The translations under genes were made by a program, and so were the position numbers. From positions 1 to 34,175 of the forward strand of contig CALLAF010000049.1 of NCBI GenBank assembly GCA_938002605.1: a stretch of DNA of 34,175 nucleotides, given 5' to 3'. The notes beneath the pieces were generated by a model. It did no database searches and was not told where the DNA came from. It saw only the letters and a list, made by a program, of their open reading frames with translations. Position 1 is the stretch's first letter; every line of letters starts with the position of its first letter. Below are positions 4,099 through 22,037 of the stretch, piece after piece. This stretch comes from an uncultured Paracoccaceae bacterium. GTDB taxonomy: Bacteria; Pseudomonadota; Alphaproteobacteria; Rhodobacterales; Rhodobacteraceae.

Positions 4099-4193
4099 GA
4101 CACCGCAATGCGGATTGGCCGATGGTAGCGCCAAGGTGTGGCTTGCGCGAACAGCCGTCCTACCGTCGAAACCGAAAAGGGAACCGCCAGTCA

Positions 4194-5027
4194 ATGGATT
4201 ACAAAATCATTGCAACCGTTCTGACCAGGCAAGATGACGCGCCCGACGCGTTGAATGCAGCAATCGCGCTTGCAACTGATATGAACGCGCATCTGGATAT
4301 TTACATCACCACCATCAGCCACACAGAAACCAACAATTATTATTTGGGTGCAGAAGCAATCTTGGTTGCCGAGCAAACCCGCGAGGCGATGACCGCACGC
4401 GAAGAAATCGAGGCCTGGCTTGAAGAGCGGATGAAAGGTGAGGTGATCCGTTGGTCGTCTAAGGCTGCGACGGTGCAAGGCCCCGCACTGACAGGGTATT
4501 TGGCGCGCAGCTTACGGTTTTCTGATTTGGTCGTGCTTCCACGGCCCTATCAAGACAATCCAGAAACCGCCACAGTGGTCGAAGCCTGCCTATTTTCCGC
4601 AGAGCGTCCGGTTCTGATGATCCCCGAAGGCTGTGAAATGCCTGCGCATGGCGGCCGTATTCTCATGGGTTGGAACGATGGCGCTGAAGCGCTTGCCGCC
4701 GTTCGGGCTGCATTGCCGTTGCTCGAAAAATCAGACCAAACGGACATCTGTATCATCGATCCGCCCGTCCATGCGGCTGATCGTTCTGACCCTGGTGGGG
4801 CGATGGCGCAATATTTAATGCGGCACGGAACAAAGACTCAGGTTGACGTTTTGGCAAAAACAGAGCCACATGTGGGCGAGATACTGCTGCGTCATGCTCG
4901 GGAGGTTGGCGCACAGATGATCGTATCCGGTGCTTATGGCCATTCCCGTCTACGCGAGGCCGTCCTTGGCGGCGCCACGCGCAGCCTATTGGAAATGGCG
5001 GATCGGCCGATCTTAATGTCGCGCTAA
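4194..5027 (+). CDS. tandem-domain universal stress protein (UspA family)
   Basis: This 277-residue cytoplasmic protein has two Usp domains, about 1-145 and 155-277. The second carries the nucleotide-binding loop GAYGHSRLREAVLGGATRS (G-x2-G-x9-G-G), the form common in alphaproteobacterial tandem Usp proteins. The first domain lacks a clear loop of this kind. The start is at MDYKII, with AAGGG upstream; an earlier in-frame start at 4122 lacks similarity and runs towards the FNR box. It is transcribed away from ccoN. A role in anaerobic or energy stress is inferred from the shared FNR box. Confidence 0.92.
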   Translation: MDYKIIATVLTRQDDAPDALNAAIALATDMNAHLDIYITTISHTETNNYYLGAEAILVAEQTREAMTAREEIEAWLEERMKGEVIRWSSKAATVQGPALTGYLARSLRFSDLVVLPRPYQDNPETATVVEACLFSAERPVLMIPEGCEMPAHGGRILMGWNDGAEALAAVRAALPLLEKSDQTDICIIDPPVHAADRSDPGGAMAQYLMRHGTKTQVDVLAKTEPHVGEILLRHAREVGAQMIVSGAYGHSRLREAVLGGATRSLLEMADRPILMSR

Positions 5028-5099: not shown

Positions 5100-6410
5100 T
5101 CATTCACCGTTCATCGCACGCGCATACAATTGCCACAGCTTTTGTCCGCGCGATGGATTTAACGTGCAAACCCAATCGATTTGCCCTTCCAAAGACAAAC
5201 AATGCGCATGGTCCAACCGACGTGCATCATCACCATGGCGCAATGCATGAATTTTGGCTTTGATCAGATCATACTGCACGCGCGGCACATTGAGATGCTG
5301 GTTTACAACAATCCCTGTCACGACCTGACGCTGCGTTGCATGGCGCACACGCGTCTTACGTGGATTTAGAACGAACCCTTCCTCCTGCAAAATTTGCGGG
5401 ACTGCCCTTGTCAGAATGGGTGCAATTCTTGCGTCACCTGAAAATGTAAGATCATCGGCATACCGACTATATCGGGCGTCCAACGCACGCGCGAGCCCCG
5501 CCAAACGGCGATCTAGCGTGAATGCAATCAAATTCGCTAATGCAGGCGACGACGGCGCGCCCTGCGGTAAATGCGGGGTCCGCATCAACTGACCTTGCAG
5601 ATGAGGTAACCGTGCGCGGACCCGCTGTGGTGTCGTGGTCGTACAAAGCCCCGTTAAGGTTATCGCGACCGCATCCGGATATCCTAACCGCCGAAACAGA
5701 CCAAAAACCCGCGCGGCCCCGATCCGAGGAAAGAAATCGCGTAGATCAAAGCTAACCACAGTTTGCGCCCCGCAGTGGCGGTTCGCGGCTTGCGCACATG
5801 ACTTGCCACGCACAAAACCAAATGCATCTGGATGAACTGGAACTTTGTCCAATATCCCCCGCAAAATCTGACGTTGCAAGTTCTTGAGCCCCGACTTCGG
5901 GGCTTCGATTACGCGGTACTCGCCCGTTGGTTTGGCACGCAGCCCATATAAGTAGTGATGTACCGCCGCATCCGGATGCTCGTTGTGGCGGTTCGTGACA
6001 TCCGCCATATACGCGAGCCGTGCGCCATCAATCACCAACCAATCTGCAAGCGCTGCGAGTGTCGGGATATTGGGCAAATCCAGCCCTGCGAACGGGAACA
6101 ACGGGTGCATTTTATCGGAATTCAAATCTGGGTCCGGCCAAATCCCCAGTCGCAGGCATTCACCGTGCAATCGGACAAATGCATCACATGCGCACAAGGC
6201 CTTAGAAATCGCGCCCGCACTCCGTGCAGTCATTGCCTGCAGCAATGCAACAAGGTCTTCGGCGATCAATCGTGCTTCGCGGTGAAACTGTGCTGGCAGG
6301 CGCCGCTTTAATGCATCGGTGACATCCGGAACCGCCCAACACCCCTTTGCCAGGCTTGGCGCGATTAACTGTGCAAAGATTTTCAACGAATTTCTTTTGT
6401 CAGGGCACAA
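5100..6410 (-). CDS. retron-type reverse transcriptase
   Basis: The enzyme copies part of its own structured RNA into single-stranded DNA (msDNA). It has 436 residues from a TTG at 6410. RT motifs are in order: FDLRDFFPRI (221-230, catalytic D222), LPQGAPSSPALANL (281-294), YADD (317-320, D319 and D320), NPRKTR (349-354). Retron-specific boxes are present: AANRH at 208-212, matching the NAxxH box, and VTG at 364-366. About 150 helical-looking residues precede the RT domain, as in myxobacterial-type retron RTs; there is no maturase or HNH domain. The start is uncertain: TTG 6410 lies inside repeat a2 with AAAGGCAGAGA upstream, TTG 6386 is another choice, and no ATG occurs before codon 60. A msr-msd gene lies directly upstream on the same strand. 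Confidence 0.93.
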   Translation of the reverse strand: MCPDKRNSLKIFAQLIAPSLAKGCWAVPDVTDALKRRLPAQFHREARLIAEDLVALLQAMTARSAGAISKALCACDAFVRLHGECLRLGIWPDPDLNSDKMHPLFPFAGLDLPNIPTLAALADWLVIDGARLAYMADVTNRHNEHPDAAVHHYLYGLRAKPTGEYRVIEAPKSGLKNLQRQILRGILDKVPVHPDAFGFVRGKSCAQAANRHCGAQTVVSFDLRDFFPRIGAARVFGLFRRLGYPDAVAITLTGLCTTTTPQRVRARLPHLQGQLMRTPHLPQGAPSSPALANLIAFTLDRRLAGLARALDARYSRYADDLTFSGDARIAPILTRAVPQILQEEGFVLNPRKTRVRHATQRQVVTGIVVNQHLNVPRVQYDLIKAKIHALRHGDDARRLDHAHCLSLEGQIDWVCTLNPSRGQKLWQLYARAMNGE

Positions 6411-6423
6411 CGAACGATCTCTG
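6400..6423 (-). repeat. retron repeat a2
   Basis: 3' end of the retron RNA, pairing with a1 at 6540-6560. The upstream candidate start codon of the RT (TTG, 6410-6408) lies inside it, so the RNA stem and RT translation initiation may compete. Confidence 0.85.
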
Positions 6424-6490
6424 CCTTTCTTGGTCGCGCGTCACCCGGACTGGGTAAAACCCAGTCACGGTGATGCCGTGTATGCAAAGG
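6424..6490 (-). other. predicted msd template of the retron (msDNA about 67 nt)
   Basis: Copying this segment gives single-stranded DNA equal to the plus strand 6424-6490. It closes with CCTTT (6424-6428) and AAAGG (6486-6490), then a 9x9 internal loop, then GCGTCACC (6438-6445) with GGTGATGC (6469-6476), a 2x2 internal loop, and GACTGGGT (6448-6455) with ACCCAGTC (6459-6466) around an AAA loop. The pair 6440-6474 is G-T in the cDNA but C-A in the RNA, so the fold favours DNA. Ends are predicted from the a2 border. Confidence 0.75.
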
Positions 6491-6539
6491 TCGTTTGGTC
6501 AGGCGGGGATACCCCGCCCTTGGTATCAAAGACACCAGC

Positions 6540-6560
6540 CAGAGATCGCCGTTGCCCCTA
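6540..6560 (-). repeat. retron repeat a1
   Basis: 5' end of the retron RNA, complementary to a2 at 6400-6423. The inner nine bases CGATCTCTG pair perfectly; outward there is a G-U pair, AACG pairing with CGTT, and GGGC pairing with GCCC, separated by bulges. It begins 44 bases after the fnrL stop codon. Confidence 0.85.
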
Positions 6561-6561
6561 A

Positions 6562-6590
6562 GGCTTAACGCCAAAAAACCGCTGAGACAA
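6562..6590 (-). promoter_or_regulatory. weak candidate promoter for the retron RNA
   Basis: TTGTCT (6590-6585) is followed after 17 bases by TAAGCC (6567-6562), which would place the transcript start at or next to the G run that opens a1. The -10 match is poor, so read-through from fnrL, which ends 44 bases before a1, is an equally good explanation. Confidence 0.2.
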
Positions 6591-6603
6591 CACGCCCACT
6601 AGG

Positions 6604-7323
6604 CTAGTCAGCTTCACCGGTTTCATCCTTAAGCGCTTCAACATCAGGCACCGTGATATCGCGGCGGTCGGTAAATGAAATCAGCCCATCGCGCTTTAGC
6701 GCTGACATCTGTCGGCTTACTGTTTCGATCGTGAGGCCAAGATAATTTGCCATCGTTTCGCGGGTAATTGGCAGGGTGAACGTCGTGCTTTCTGACCTCT
6801 GCGCGGACAGCTTCGCCATTCGAATAGCGATCATATAAAGCAGCGAAGCAATTTTCTCGCGGGCGGTTTTGCGCCCCAACACCAACATCCATTCACGCGC
6901 CGCATCCAATTCATCCAACGTCATTTCCAGCAGGCGTTGACCGACATGTGGCGTGTGATCAATCAAACGTTCAAACGGTTTACGCCGAAAACAGCAGAGC
7001 ATCACATCCGTTTCAGCAACCACATCGCAATCAATCGTATCTCGGTTGGGGCGGCCCAAAAAATCACCGGGTAACAATAGCCCAACCATTTGGACGCGCC
7101 CGTCCGGCATGGTTCGCGTCAGGCTTGATACGCCCGAAACGATGGATGCCACAAATTCTAATGGATCCCCCGCAAAGAAAATCGGCTGACCTGCGGCGAA
7201 GGAGCGATAATATTTGATCGCTTCCAATTCTTGCATTTCATCAACGTCACACTTTGAACAAACCGCATTATACCGAATGGGGCAGTCGTCACAGGAGTTC
7301 ATCGATGGGACAGAGAGTTTCAT
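6604..7323 (-). CDS. fnrL: oxygen-sensing Crp/Fnr-family regulator FnrL
   Basis: FnrL senses oxygen through a 4Fe-4S cluster and controls micro-oxic genes. The 239-residue protein has N-terminal cysteines C11, C14, C22 and C25 in C-x2-C-x7-C-x2-C and a later C99, the candidate cluster ligands. A cNMP-type beta-barrel (about 35-120) and a dimer helix (132-160) follow. The winged helix (about 187-225) has recognition residues E200, S203 and R204 in ETVSR, the set that reads TTGAT. Its neighbourhood with usp and ccoNOQP supports the name. The ATG at 7323 is the only start that keeps the cysteines, with AAGG about 14 bases upstream. No FNR box was seen in its own promoter. Confidence 0.95.
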   Translation of the reverse strand: MKLSVPSMNSCDDCPIRYNAVCSKCDVDEMQELEAIKYYRSFAAGQPIFFAGDPLEFVASIVSGVSSLTRTMPDGRVQMVGLLLPGDFLGRPNRDTIDCDVVAETDVMLCCFRRKPFERLIDHTPHVGQRLLEMTLDELDAAREWMLVLGRKTAREKIASLLYMIAIRMAKLSAQRSESTTFTLPITRETMANYLGLTIETVSRQMSALKRDGLISFTDRRDITVPDVEALKDETGEAD

Positions 7324-17388: not shown

Positions 17389-18615
17389 TTGATCCGCATC
17401 TTGCATACGGCAGACTTACATCTGGATTCGCCGCTCAAATCGCTGGCACTGCGTGATCCGGATATGCGCGACAGCGTGCAAACGGCTACGCGCACGGCCT
17501 TGGTTCGGATTGTCGACACAGCTCTGTCTGAAAATGTCGCCGCCTTGCTGATCGCAGGGGATTTGTTTGATGGGGCTGCACGCAGCGCCAAAACGGCAGC
17601 ATTTCTTGTCACCCAGCTTGATCGCTTGGCCGCCGCCGACATCCCTGTCTTTTATATCAAAGGCAATCATGACGCTGAAAACCCAATCACGGGCGAGGCC
17701 GCTTTGCCTGCAAACGTCCATATTTTTGACGGGCGCGGTGGCAAAGCGCAGCTACCCGGCTCCGATATTTGGATACACGGCGTCAGCTTTCGCGACAGGC
17801 ACGCGCCCGACAGCCTATTGGATAAGTTCAGCGCGCCCGTTGCTGATGCGATCAATATTGGGATGCTGCATACGTCACTTGCGGGTGCAGCGGAGCATGA
17901 CACCTATGCGCCTTGCGCGGTCGCTGATCTGCAAGGCATGGGGTTCGATTATTGGGCGCTGGGCCATATTCACAAACGCCGTATCTATAGTGACGCCCCG
18001 TGGATCGTGATGCCCGGCATCCCTCAGGGCCGCGATATCGGCGAAGCAGGGCCGCAATCCGCCACGATGTTAGAGATCGTTGGTGGCGCGATTACGCTGC
18101 GCGAAATCCCCACGGCAGCGGTGATTTTCCAGAATGTCGATTTAGATATCACTGCGCACACCGACGACGATCAGCTACGTGGCGCGATCCGAACCGCCCT
18201 GCGCGACAATACAACACCAGACTGCACCCGCATTCTGCGCCTCAGATTAACCGGGCAAAGCGACCGCCATTGGCAGATAATGCGTGATCAGGCGATGTGG
18301 ACAGAGACCGCTCGCTCACTCGCCCAAGAAAGCGGTGACGTTTGGATCGATAAGTTGCGCTTTGATCTATCGGCCCCGTCGATGGTGAAAAATAATGCTA
18401 CTGATGAGCTTGCCCAAATCATGCAAGCGATGCGCGATGAACCCGGTATCGCGGCAAAGCTGACCGACCTGCTTGAAACCACGTTATCGGAACTACCTGC
18501 ACAGGCGCGCGCCGACCTATTACCGGACCCCGACGCGCTGGCCACGTTGGCGCAAGAACTCACCGACCAAGGCACCGCGCAAATGATCGCCCTGATGAAA
18601 GGGACCAGCGAGTAA
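17389..18615 (+). CDS. YhaO/SbcD-like metallophosphoesterase (DNA exonuclease)
   Basis: Calcineurin-like nuclease of the Mre11/SbcD group, 408 residues. The five metal motifs are present: DLH at 9-11, GDLFD at 57-61, GNHD at 92-95, H161 in MLHTS, and GHIH at 192-195. A capping domain and a C-terminal partner-binding region follow. The start is taken as TTG 17389 with AGGGGGG upstream, which puts HTADLHLD at the usual N-terminal place; the frame is open back into the lactonase gene but that part has no similarity. It overlaps the next gene as TAATG. Together they resemble YhaO-YhaN, Firmicute-named relatives of SbcCD, likely for DNA end processing. Confidence 0.88.
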   Translation: MIRILHTADLHLDSPLKSLALRDPDMRDSVQTATRTALVRIVDTALSENVAALLIAGDLFDGAARSAKTAAFLVTQLDRLAAADIPVFYIKGNHDAENPITGEAALPANVHIFDGRGGKAQLPGSDIWIHGVSFRDRHAPDSLLDKFSAPVADAINIGMLHTSLAGAAEHDTYAPCAVADLQGMGFDYWALGHIHKRRIYSDAPWIVMPGIPQGRDIGEAGPQSATMLEIVGGAITLREIPTAAVIFQNVDLDITAHTDDDQLRGAIRTALRDNTTPDCTRILRLRLTGQSDRHWQIMRDQAMWTETARSLAQESGDVWIDKLRFDLSAPSMVKNNATDELAQIMQAMRDEPGIAAKLTDLLETTLSELPAQARADLLPDPDALATLAQELTDQGTAQMIALMKGTSE

Positions 18616-21600
18616 TGCGGCTGCGTAAATTAAACCTTGACCTATTTGGGCATTTTTCGGGGAAATCTTATGATTTTGGGGCTGCGAAACCCGGCACCCC
18701 AGATTTTCATATCATCTACGGACCCAACGAGGCCGGGAAAACCACCACAATGGAGGCCTACCTGCGCCTGCTTTATGGGTTTGATGCACGCGAAGCTTAT
18801 GATTTTCAGCATCAGCGCAAGAACCTGCGTGTCTCTGGCGCCTTTGAAACGGGGCAAGGCGATCTTTCTTTGGTCCGATTACCCACGCGGAACGCTTCCC
18901 TACAAGACGCCCATGGCGCGCCATTGCCAGAGGCCGCGATCGCTGCGCACTTGGGCGGGCTGGGGCCGGATGACTACCGCAGCTTACTTTGTCTCGATGA
19001 CGACACGATTGAACGCGGTGGCGAAGAAATCGCCAATAGCCAAGGCGACATTGGACGGCTTCTATTCTCTGCGGCGGCGGGCGTAAGCGATCTATCTCAG
19101 GTGCTCGATAGTGTTGACGTAAAGGCGAATGCCTTGTTCCTGAAACGGTCCAGCAAAACGGAAATGGCGCAGCTGAAAAAAGAACTGGCCGAGGTCACCG
19201 CCAAAATCAAAGCTCAAGACGTGCCAGCCAGCACCTACCGCAAGCTGCGCCAGAGGTTGGCCGCTGCCGAGGTAACGCAAGACCAGATCAACACGCAACG
19301 CACAGCGTTGATGGTGCAATTAGCGCAGGTTAAGGCCCAACAAAACGCCCTGCCGCTTTTGCAAAAGCTAGAACAACTGGATGCGGCTTTGGCAGAAATG
19401 CCGGACTACCCGTTGCATCTTGACGTATCTCCAGAAGACTTGGTGCAGCTTTTGACCACACAAAATCAGGCCGATCATGACCTGTCCCGGCTGAACCAAG
19501 AACGCGATGCGCACAAAACTGCGTTAGCGCAGATTGATCTTGAGCCCAACCAACTGAACTTGCGGCAGGCATTGGATGATCTAGATGCCACGCGCAGTCG
19601 CTTTGCGACGGCGCAGCTTGATCTGCCGCGCCGCGTTGAAACGCGCGACACTATCATCAAGGACATGCAGCGCGCCGCCGCCGAACTCGGGGCGACCTGC
19701 GACCCGGCCCAATTGATCATCTCGCCCGCCGCGTTGACCGAACTTGAAACCGCGCGCGACATATTGCGAACAACCGCGCATGACCTAGACTCCGGATCGC
19801 GCGAATTGACCCGGCTTGCCGATCGGGTGGCGCTCGCCGAAGATAGCACGACACTATCCGCACGCCCAGATGACACCGAAATCGGTGAAATTTTGGACAG
19901 ATTTTCAATCGACGGCTTCGCCCCGACCTATGCGACGGCGCTACAAGCAATCAACAGCGCAAAGCGTGACCTTGCAGCGGCACTAGCCGCGCTAGCGATG
20001 AATGGTCAAACATTCAATCAGGTCCCTGCATGTGCTGTTACTGTGCCAGAGATCGCCGCGCACGCGGAAAAGCACACCGAGCTGGACCGTAAGATCACCC
20101 AAGCCAAGGATGATCTGGACCGGATGCGCGCAGATCACGCCGCGCAAAATGCCCAGATCAATGCGCAACGCGGCGCAGGCACGCTTATCGATGATACACA
20201 GGCGCAAGCAGCGATCACATTGCGCGACACAGCGTGGAAGGCCCACCGTGCGTCGATGACGGATGCGAGCGCCGATGCGTTTGAAGCCGCATTGAAGAAG
20301 ACAGATGCCGATGCAACACAACGACTGTCGCAGGCTGATGAGATTGGGCAGCTTAGACAACTGTCGCAAAATGCTGCGCAAACCGCGGCACGCATCACGC
20401 AACACACAGAACGGCTAGCGCGGCTGACCTCTGAACAGATGGCGATTACGAATCAACTCGCGACCATCGCTAACGACATGGGATTCACAGTTGCACCTGC
20501 CCCTTTGGCCTTTGCGCAATGGACAAATCTGATCACAACCGCAGAGGCCGCCGCACGACACCTGCACGTCACAGAACAAGATCACGCCGCGACGTTGGAG
20601 AAAGCTGATCGGTTGATCAGCGCACTAAGCCAGCATATCGCGCAAGATGCGCCAGATTTTGAAACGCTGGTCGCGGCTGCCCGGGAACGCGCAAAAATTG
20701 CACGCGATCAAGATGCAGATCAAAAGGCCAATCAACGCGCGCTTAATGATTTACGCGCTGAACTGAAGAAACGACAAGACCAATGCGCCACACTGAAAAA
20801 GACCGCACAAGACGCCCAGACAGCATGGCGCAATTTGGTCGCGGAACACCTGCATGAACATGTGCAGGCAGATCGGCTTGCACTTTCGTTTGAACCCTTA
20901 CGCACCCTGCGTGAACTGAACGCCCGTCACAGTACGGCAGCACGCCAAGTCACATCGATGCAAGAGGATCAGGCAAAGTTTACCGCAGCCATAAATACAT
21001 TGGCCACGCAGCATGCTGTTAACGTTGATGATCCTCTTGCAGCTTTTTCAACGCTCGCCAGCCTCGCCGATGAAGCCCACGCCCAAGAAGAGCGTAGTGC
21101 CATGCTTGGGCAAAAAATCGACGCGGGCGCAGAACAAATCACACAGGCACAACGCGTCATCGACGATATCGCACGCAAGGTCGCGGCGATTGGGGCACAG
21201 TTCCCCGCCGACATCCCAACCGCGTCAATTGATGACCTGCGGCGCGCTGTTGCGGGGGCCCATGACGCGGTGGTCGCGCATAAAGATAGGACAGAGGTAG
21301 CCGCGCAAATAACGCTGCAACTAGGGACATCAGATTTAACGCAAGCACGCGACGCATTAACCGGACAAACCGCAACAAGCCTCGCGGCGACCGCGATGCA
21401 AGTTCAGGGCGATCTAGACGCCATTGAAACCCAGTACCGCGACGCCATCACCGCCCACGCAGAAGCCGCGCGCGATCTGAACGCAGTCACGGGTGACGAC
21501 AGTGTCGCCACGATGGTCACACGAAAAACGGCAATTGAACTGGCGATCCAAGACGTGGCGCTGCGCTATGTCAAATTGCGTGCGGGTCATATGCTGGCCC

Positions 21601-22037
21601 AAGAAGCAATCCGGCGTTACCGCGATAAGCACCGCAGCGGCATGATGGAAGCGACGCAAATCGCCTTTGGAGAGCTTACCAATGGGGCCTATACCGCGCT
21701 GCAAACGCAAACCCAAGGCAGCAATGAAACGTTAATCGCAATTGACGCGTCGGGGCGCGCGAAACACGCGCAAGATATGTCGAAAGGTACCCGGTTTCAG
21801 CTATATCTCGCACTACGCGCGGCAGCCTATGAACAACTTGCCGATCAGGGCACGTGTTTGCCGTTTTTTTGCGATGATATTTTTGAAACCTTCGACGAAG
21901 CCCGCACCAAATCCGCCTGCGCCATGATGGCACGGATCGGACGGCGCGGTCAGGCGATCTATCTCACCCATCACCAGCATGTCGTTGATATCGCGCGTGC
22001 AACCTGCGGCGACGGTGTTCGGGTACACGAAATTTGA
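18615..22037 (+). CDS. YhaN/SbcC-like AAA ATPase with long coiled coil
   Basis: A 1140-residue SMC/Rad50-type ATPase. N-terminal Walker A is GPNEAGKTT at 36-44. A long heptad-rich, Gln- and Ala-rich coiled coil spans about 180-1000. The C-terminal half-domain has an LSxG-like signature MSKGT near 1055, Walker B LPFFCDDIFETFDE at 1082-1095 and an H-loop THHQH near 1118. I see no zinc-hook CxxC at the middle of the coil, as expected for YhaN rather than Rad50 proteins. It is translationally coupled to the nuclease gene and probably forms a complex with it that opens or trims DNA ends. Confidence 0.88.
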   Translation: MRLRKLNLDLFGHFSGKSYDFGAAKPGTPDFHIIYGPNEAGKTTTMEAYLRLLYGFDAREAYDFQHQRKNLRVSGAFETGQGDLSLVRLPTRNASLQDAHGAPLPEAAIAAHLGGLGPDDYRSLLCLDDDTIERGGEEIANSQGDIGRLLFSAAAGVSDLSQVLDSVDVKANALFLKRSSKTEMAQLKKELAEVTAKIKAQDVPASTYRKLRQRLAAAEVTQDQINTQRTALMVQLAQVKAQQNALPLLQKLEQLDAALAEMPDYPLHLDVSPEDLVQLLTTQNQADHDLSRLNQERDAHKTALAQIDLEPNQLNLRQALDDLDATRSRFATAQLDLPRRVETRDTIIKDMQRAAAELGATCDPAQLIISPAALTELETARDILRTTAHDLDSGSRELTRLADRVALAEDSTTLSARPDDTEIGEILDRFSIDGFAPTYATALQAINSAKRDLAAALAALAMNGQTFNQVPACAVTVPEIAAHAEKHTELDRKITQAKDDLDRMRADHAAQNAQINAQRGAGTLIDDTQAQAAITLRDTAWKAHRASMTDASADAFEAALKKTDADATQRLSQADEIGQLRQLSQNAAQTAARITQHTERLARLTSEQMAITNQLATIANDMGFTVAPAPLAFAQWTNLITTAEAAARHLHVTEQDHAATLEKADRLISALSQHIAQDAPDFETLVAAARERAKIARDQDADQKANQRALNDLRAELKKRQDQCATLKKTAQDAQTAWRNLVAEHLHEHVQADRLALSFEPLRTLRELNARHSTAARQVTSMQEDQAKFTAAINTLATQHAVNVDDPLAAFSTLASLADEAHAQEERSAMLGQKIDAGAEQITQAQRVIDDIARKVAAIGAQFPADIPTASIDDLRRAVAGAHDAVVAHKDRTEVAAQITLQLGTSDLTQARDALTGQTATSLAATAMQVQGDLDAIETQYRDAITAHAEAARDLNAVTGDDSVATMVTRKTAIELAIQDVALRYVKLRAGHMLAQEAIRRYRDKHRSGMMEATQIAFGELTNGAYTALQTQTQGSNETLIAIDASGRAKHAQDMSKGTRFQLYLALRAAAYEQLADQGTCLPFFCDDIFETFDEARTKSACAMMARIGRRGQAIYLTHHQHVVDIARATCGDGVRVHEI

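Follow-up and report, generated by a model that had tools for sequence, protein, structure and literature searches.

Among described retrons, Retron-Eco1 (Ec86) has the overall msr-msd layout, a linked effector and a reverse transcriptase (RT) without the N-terminal domain described below; the myxobacterial retrons are not known to have a linked effector. Retrons typically have an effector, and in the usual view the RT, the RNA and the DNA restrain this toxic protein (PMC12548924, available portion). Some retrons have no clear effector association, functions beyond defence have been suggested for those without effectors, and effector-less retrons are already known as a kind (PMC8867640, available portion). 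The priming motifs given for retrons in the available portion of PMC6868368 are TAGC, CAGA, CAGC, GAGC and ACGC.

The window analysed here is a stretch of 34,175 nucleotides from an uncultured, Yoonia-like Paracoccaceae bacterium (contig CALLAF010000049.1), the nearest named relatives of which are Yoonia and Loktanella records. RNA folding, covariation, a covariance model search, RT families and a predicted protein structure support the reading of one of its loci as a retron with a readable msr-msd gene. Together, the RNA gene and the RT probably make up a retron predicted to produce branched RNA-DNA (ca. 70 DNA bases), with no recognisable effector gene next to it.

The reverse transcriptase and its relatives

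The RT gene (5100–6410, minus strand) encodes a protein of 436 aa, identified by its translation and by profile, sequence and fold matches. All of the motifs listed in the first-pass annotation – FDLRDFF, LPQGAPSSP, YADD, VTG and AANRH – are present in the translation, with the catalytic YADD at 5451–5462 (minus strand). Across 57 RT rows, Y317, D319 and D320 are invariant and A318 is nearly so. NAxxH is a retron RT motif, and AANRH retains its A and H but not its N. The listed start codon is a TTG at 6410, inside the a2 end of the RNA gene described below; the alternative is an in-frame TTG at 6386.

The sole Pfam family found in the RT is RVT_1 (E 5.4e-22). The top PADLOC models are RT_other (PDLC02949; 421 bits, E 1.7e-126) and RT_outgroup (PDLC03740; 400 bits, E 2.6e-120), which by their names appear to be labels for RTs without an assigned type. 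The next typed model is RT_XIII (299 bits, E 1.8e-89), and the NCBIfam retron models match below their cut-offs. By sequence, the closest solved structure is the retron Ec86 RT (E 6.1e-38), with retron RTs at the head of the list. An AlphaFold2 model built on the 57-row alignment (mean pLDDT 91.9) had its best fold matches in Ec86, Eco7 and Eco2, with the Ec86 RT on top (E 3.8e-22, TM 0.83 by target) and the first 18 rows all retron RTs. The YADD and VTG motifs of the translation, together with PADLOC, PDB and fold matches headed by retron RTs, assign the protein to the retron RTs. The dN/dS values of 0.142 and 0.140 indicate that purifying selection acts on it.

In the AlphaFold2 model, approximately residues 1–104 form an N-terminal helical domain (6099–6410, minus strand; helices within residues 5–88), and residues 9–126 alone have a mean pLDDT of 85.6. 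The domain is conserved (dN/dS of the N-terminal part 0.213 and 0.171). Three members were searched for a Pfam family in it up to E 1, with none matching, and a Foldseek search against the PDB returned nothing with an E-value of 0.001 or lower.

A tree of 60 RT cores places the window RT in a clade of 37 rows with support of 100/100, away from 20 further retron-type RTs that occur in the window's bacterial family. Sixteen of the rows, the window included, come from its family and from Litoreibacter and Sulfitobacter loci; L075 is from the same class, L049 is from a Verrucomicrobia MAG, and 19 are beta rows. The adjoining branch holds L050, L053 and L010–L012, while L013–L029 and L057 are elsewhere in the tree. 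On this type-XIII-like branch, L010–L012 (G218, G054 and G063) have RT open frames of 595–662 aa, longer than the window RT.

All 19 members of the set A1 match both RT_other and RT_outgroup. PADLOC was also run on six single RTs that do not belong to the window's family: five clade members (L035, L036, L041, L048 and L049) preferred RT_other, with RT_outgroup as the other of their best two models, and L050 preferred RT_XIII. Near full-length relatives, with the window's own genome counted, were found in 7 of 56 genomes of the genus, 8 of 295 of the family and 2 of 385 of the class.

Structure and conservation of the RNA gene

The RNA gene that the first-pass annotation saw directly upstream of the RT on the same strand was located at 6405–6555 (minus strand, as are all of its parts), where 151 nt from a1 to a2 are supported by fold z-score, covariation and covariance model. 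The minimum free energy (MFE) of a 199-nt stretch was -90 kcal/mol (z -4.8), and none of 200 dinucleotide shuffles folded as well; the trimmed 151 nt gave -77.6 kcal/mol (z -7.1, 100 mononucleotide shuffles). None of the 4227 Rfam families reached its gathering threshold in the window, and none matched 6380–6640 up to E 10.

Within the MFE structure, the paired ends a1 (6540–6555) and a2 (6407–6423) form 16 pairs with one bulged base; paired ends had been read from the letters, as 9 perfect pairs plus about 9 more. Two msr hairpins with 3-base loops had also been described, both of 7 bp. The loops hold in the predicted fold, and the stems have 7 pairs in hairpin 1 (6521–6537) and 8 pairs in hairpin 2 (6501–6519, loop UAU). 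A hairpin of varied length occupies the place of hairpin 1 in relatives, and it is outside the consensus structure used for the covariation counts below. The 18-base core of hairpin 2 occurs once in its own genome at up to 2 mismatches. As anticipated, the fold prediction sets the long msd hairpin directly against a2. The predicted msd template (6424–6494) is a two-part hairpin with a CUGGG/CCCAG tip; from the base before a2 to a putative end at ca. 6494 it would measure 67–71 nt, in agreement with the 65–70 nt first proposed.

A lack of conservation of the paired ends and hairpins at homologous loci had been named as evidence against a retron. The matching stretch was cut from 15 further loci and each was folded against 100 mononucleotide shuffles. 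The plan recurs in all 16 loci (z -3.5 to -7.5): the ends pair, a GGGG/CCCC hairpin forms, and the msd is a hairpin of two parts with CTGGG/CCCAG or a close variant at its tip. In L066 the outer pairs of msr hairpin 2 are rearranged in the predicted fold, and some rows have small extra helices. The paired ends and hairpins are thus conserved, and an upstream msr-msd gene with complementary a1 and a2 is a feature of 16 of 16 loci.

Covariation was counted in A3, an alignment of 11 related rows. With a consensus structure derived from A3 itself, which favours it over slid versions, 96.3% of cells are paired and 11 of the 37 pairs have changed on both sides, and neither value was reached in 500 shuffles, which leave the relatedness of the rows in place. 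Slid-partner controls were 41–47% paired, and the statistic for further pair types was attained in 25 of 500 shuffles. In helix 1 (a1/a2), 93.6% of cells are paired over the 11 rows, and 4 of its pairs have changes on either side. Most covariation is in helix 3, the lower msd stem, where 5 of 8 pairs have changed on both sides. Helix 2 (msr hairpin 2) is paired in 100% of cells with 6 of 8 pairs invariable, and in helix 4 (the msd tip) 4 of 5 pairs are invariable; because these two helices hardly vary, recognition by the RT or a partner is suggested for them. Most of the a1/a2 helix was lost in the automatic 16-row alignment, A2.

A covariance model, R1, was built from A3 and run over 52 sources. 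It matched the window RNA gene at E 1.1e-38, by construction. Beyond the training rows, RNAs upstream of the RT were matched in L005–L009 and L075 (E 1.7e-7 or better), and in the Hydrogenophaga loci L036 and L039 (E 3e-7 and 4e-6). The model also matched L041, L043 and L044 (E 1e-4 to 3e-4) and, more weakly or in part, further Variovorax loci. Matches in L048, L051, L055 and L056 were at E above 1 only, and the 20 additional retron loci L010–L029 gave none up to E 10, as did L045, L046, L049, L050, L053 and L057. This pattern demonstrates the RNA among the Rhodobacterales rows and some of the beta rows, but not in the Verrucomicrobia row L049. The model provides a means of finding such RNAs, which go unmatched in Rfam.

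In A3, a1 is directly followed by an invariant G, at 6539 in the window. It stands in UGGCU in the window and in UGGAU in most relatives, and the predicted priming motif of the lineage is UGG(A/C/U)U; two relatives, L067 and L069, have AAGC. The window UGGCU matches none of the priming motifs in the available portion of PMC6868368, so UGG(A/C/U)U would be a variant motif, and priming at G 6539, a role modelled on the known retrons of that source, is a prediction.

A weak promoter-like site, TTGTCT-N17-TAAGCC (6562–6590, minus strand), is just upstream of the RNA gene, at a position shared with relatives, the sites of which are TTGGCA/TTGACA-N16-18-CATnnT/TATAAT-like. Using a consensus picked after inspection, and with related rows, 9 of 16 rows had a promoter score of at least 9, against an average of 0.32 rows and no more than 3 in 500 shuffles. 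Scores were only 6 for the window row and the three relatives with the retron at the same site, and a standard promoter scan did not call the window site. In L033, L034, L065 and L072–L074, which have differing genomic contexts, TTGGCA/TTGGCT-N17-CATnnT ends ca. 5–6 nt before a1.

Genomic context

The retron is between usp (4122–5027, plus strand; Pfam Usp) and fnrL (6604–7323, minus strand; NF045989 above its cut-off), where the first-pass annotation had placed it. Three sisters have a retron at the same site (L076, L077 and L078, from G299, G310 and G319), with RTs 67–91% identical. A match to fnrL was found in 35 of the 56 genomes of the genus; 30 fnrL loci were read, and four, the window included, have the RT. 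In seven (L091, L096, L098, L101, L112, L116 and L117) usp is 44–118 bp from the fnrL match, and L104 also has an 86 bp gap between the two, on a short contig. In L095 (G298) the interval retains a short and decayed piece of this RT but no recognisable RNA gene, and the retron seems to have been lost from this sister by deletion. Other intervals, read by eye, contain unrelated genes, such as one for a transporter-like protein in L107, L114 and L115. Since the interval is empty, remnant-bearing or otherwise filled in sisters, it is a turnover spot and not a retron-specific site. This small spot, the contents of which vary across L088–L117, adjoins the ccoNOP cluster. Elsewhere in the window, 18615–22037 (plus strand) encodes a 1140-aa AAA_27 ATPase with a weak SMC-like match.

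Twenty neighbour proteins from 13 loci, 12 of them in the clade, were scanned by Pfam. The families found were saccharopine dehydrogenase, dioxygenase, GNAT acetyltransferases, ABC ATPase, cytidylyltransferase, RtcR, RtcB, NUBPL-type ATPase, EPSP synthase, EamA transporter and Crp, Lrp/AsnC and LysR regulators; the divergent neighbour in L067 is an endonuclease/exonuclease/phosphatase-family protein (E 1e-7). Five of the 20 had no Pfam family, and PADLOC found nothing for these five. Among these is a 613-aa protein next to the type-XIII-like RT L050, outside the clade; PADLOC missed it too, so silence from PADLOC is not proof that an effector is absent. On the window flanks, PADLOC returned nothing for usp and a weak Csa3 match for fnrL (E 0.0037).

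Some flanks are shared. L067–L071 have an ABC ATPase gene and an upstream gene in common, and ten Variovorax loci (among L035–L054) share a downstream gene of 416–447 aa, ca. 100 bp after the RT match. The one member of this Variovorax family that was scanned matched nothing in Pfam or PADLOC, and the gene may be an effector or simply a fixed neighbour.

In total, neither Pfam nor PADLOC revealed a recognisable effector gene beside the RT in the window or at the 12 other clade loci with scanned neighbours. The linked or fused known effector of a tripartite retron defence system (the 13 types) was thus not recognised for this RT: its neighbours are fnrL and usp, with unrelated families at the relatives' loci, and its N-terminal domain had no Pfam match. 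Called a complete retron at first, the locus is complete in RNA and RT but not in a recognisable effector beside them, and the accompanying hint at an anti-phage system is not supported by the genes at these loci.

Interpretation

In the proposed mechanism, the RNA would fold via a1/a2, and both msr hairpins would be bound by the RT. The likely primer of DNA synthesis is the 2'-OH of the invariant G at 6539, directly after a1. From the position adjoining a2, the RT likely copies the msd as far as ca. 6494, and the RNA-DNA product would remain bound to the RT. As a guess, the conserved N-terminal helical domain may be a built-in docking or output part that replaces the usual neighbouring effector. 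Defence is put forward tentatively as the most likely use, with either this domain or an unlinked partner providing the output.

An ordinary defence retron, with an effector elsewhere in the genome or lost to leave an orphan sensor, is a possible but unlikely explanation. Retrons typically have an effector (PMC12548924, available portion) and none was recognised beside this one, at a site that turns over and that retains only a remnant in L095. However, no linked effector is recognised at 12 other clade loci either, so that the lack is not confined to one genome, and recent loss by itself does not fit because the RNA and the RT remain constrained.

It is rather improbable that the locus is an msDNA element domesticated for housekeeping or regulation and without a connection to phages, an idea raised for retrons generally. 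The lack of a recognised effector, the mostly housekeeping neighbours and the flanks common to the ten Variovorax loci are consistent with it, as are the functions beyond defence suggested for effector-less retrons (PMC8867640, available portion) and an N-terminal extension of the RT like that of myxobacterial retrons (PMC6868368, available portion). In addition, 50,697 phage records gave 14 matches to the RT, none covering 80% of it and all below 60% identity. The patchy distribution in genus and family, the several different sites and the deletion in a sister are, however, unlike a core function.

That the locus is no retron at all, but an RT on its own behind a structured leader RNA, is very improbable: the window has no AGC-type priming motif and its msDNA is a prediction, but the msr-msd layout, the invariant G in the 11-row set, the common plan of 16 of 16 loci and an RT whose profile, sequence and fold are all nearest to those of retron RTs argue against it.

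The retron reading leaves the effector-less lineage as the interesting part. An RNA and an RT that stay under constraint at several genomic positions, with no linked toxin recognised, make a testable case: the N-terminal domain may be the output, a partner may be unlinked, or the msDNA may have a use of its own.

Comparison with known retrons

The type XIII-like L050 prefers RT_XIII to RT_other (431 against 303 bits) and sits on a neighbouring branch of the tree, while the window RT prefers RT_other to RT_XIII (421 against 299 bits) and is in a different, supported clade. These scores and the separate clade place the window retron outside type XIII.

With Ec86, the window retron shares the overall msr-msd layout and the RT fold (TM 0.83), at 29% identity in the structural alignment. 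The effector question raised here applies equally to the myxobacterial retrons. The msd of one of these, Mx162, is 162 nt, against the ca. 70 nt predicted for the window retron. Like the window RT, the RTs of Mx162, Sa163, Mx65 and Ne144 have an extended N-terminus, while the priming motifs CAGC (Mx162 and Sa163) and GAGC (Mx65) differ from the UGGCU of the window (PMC6868368, available portion).
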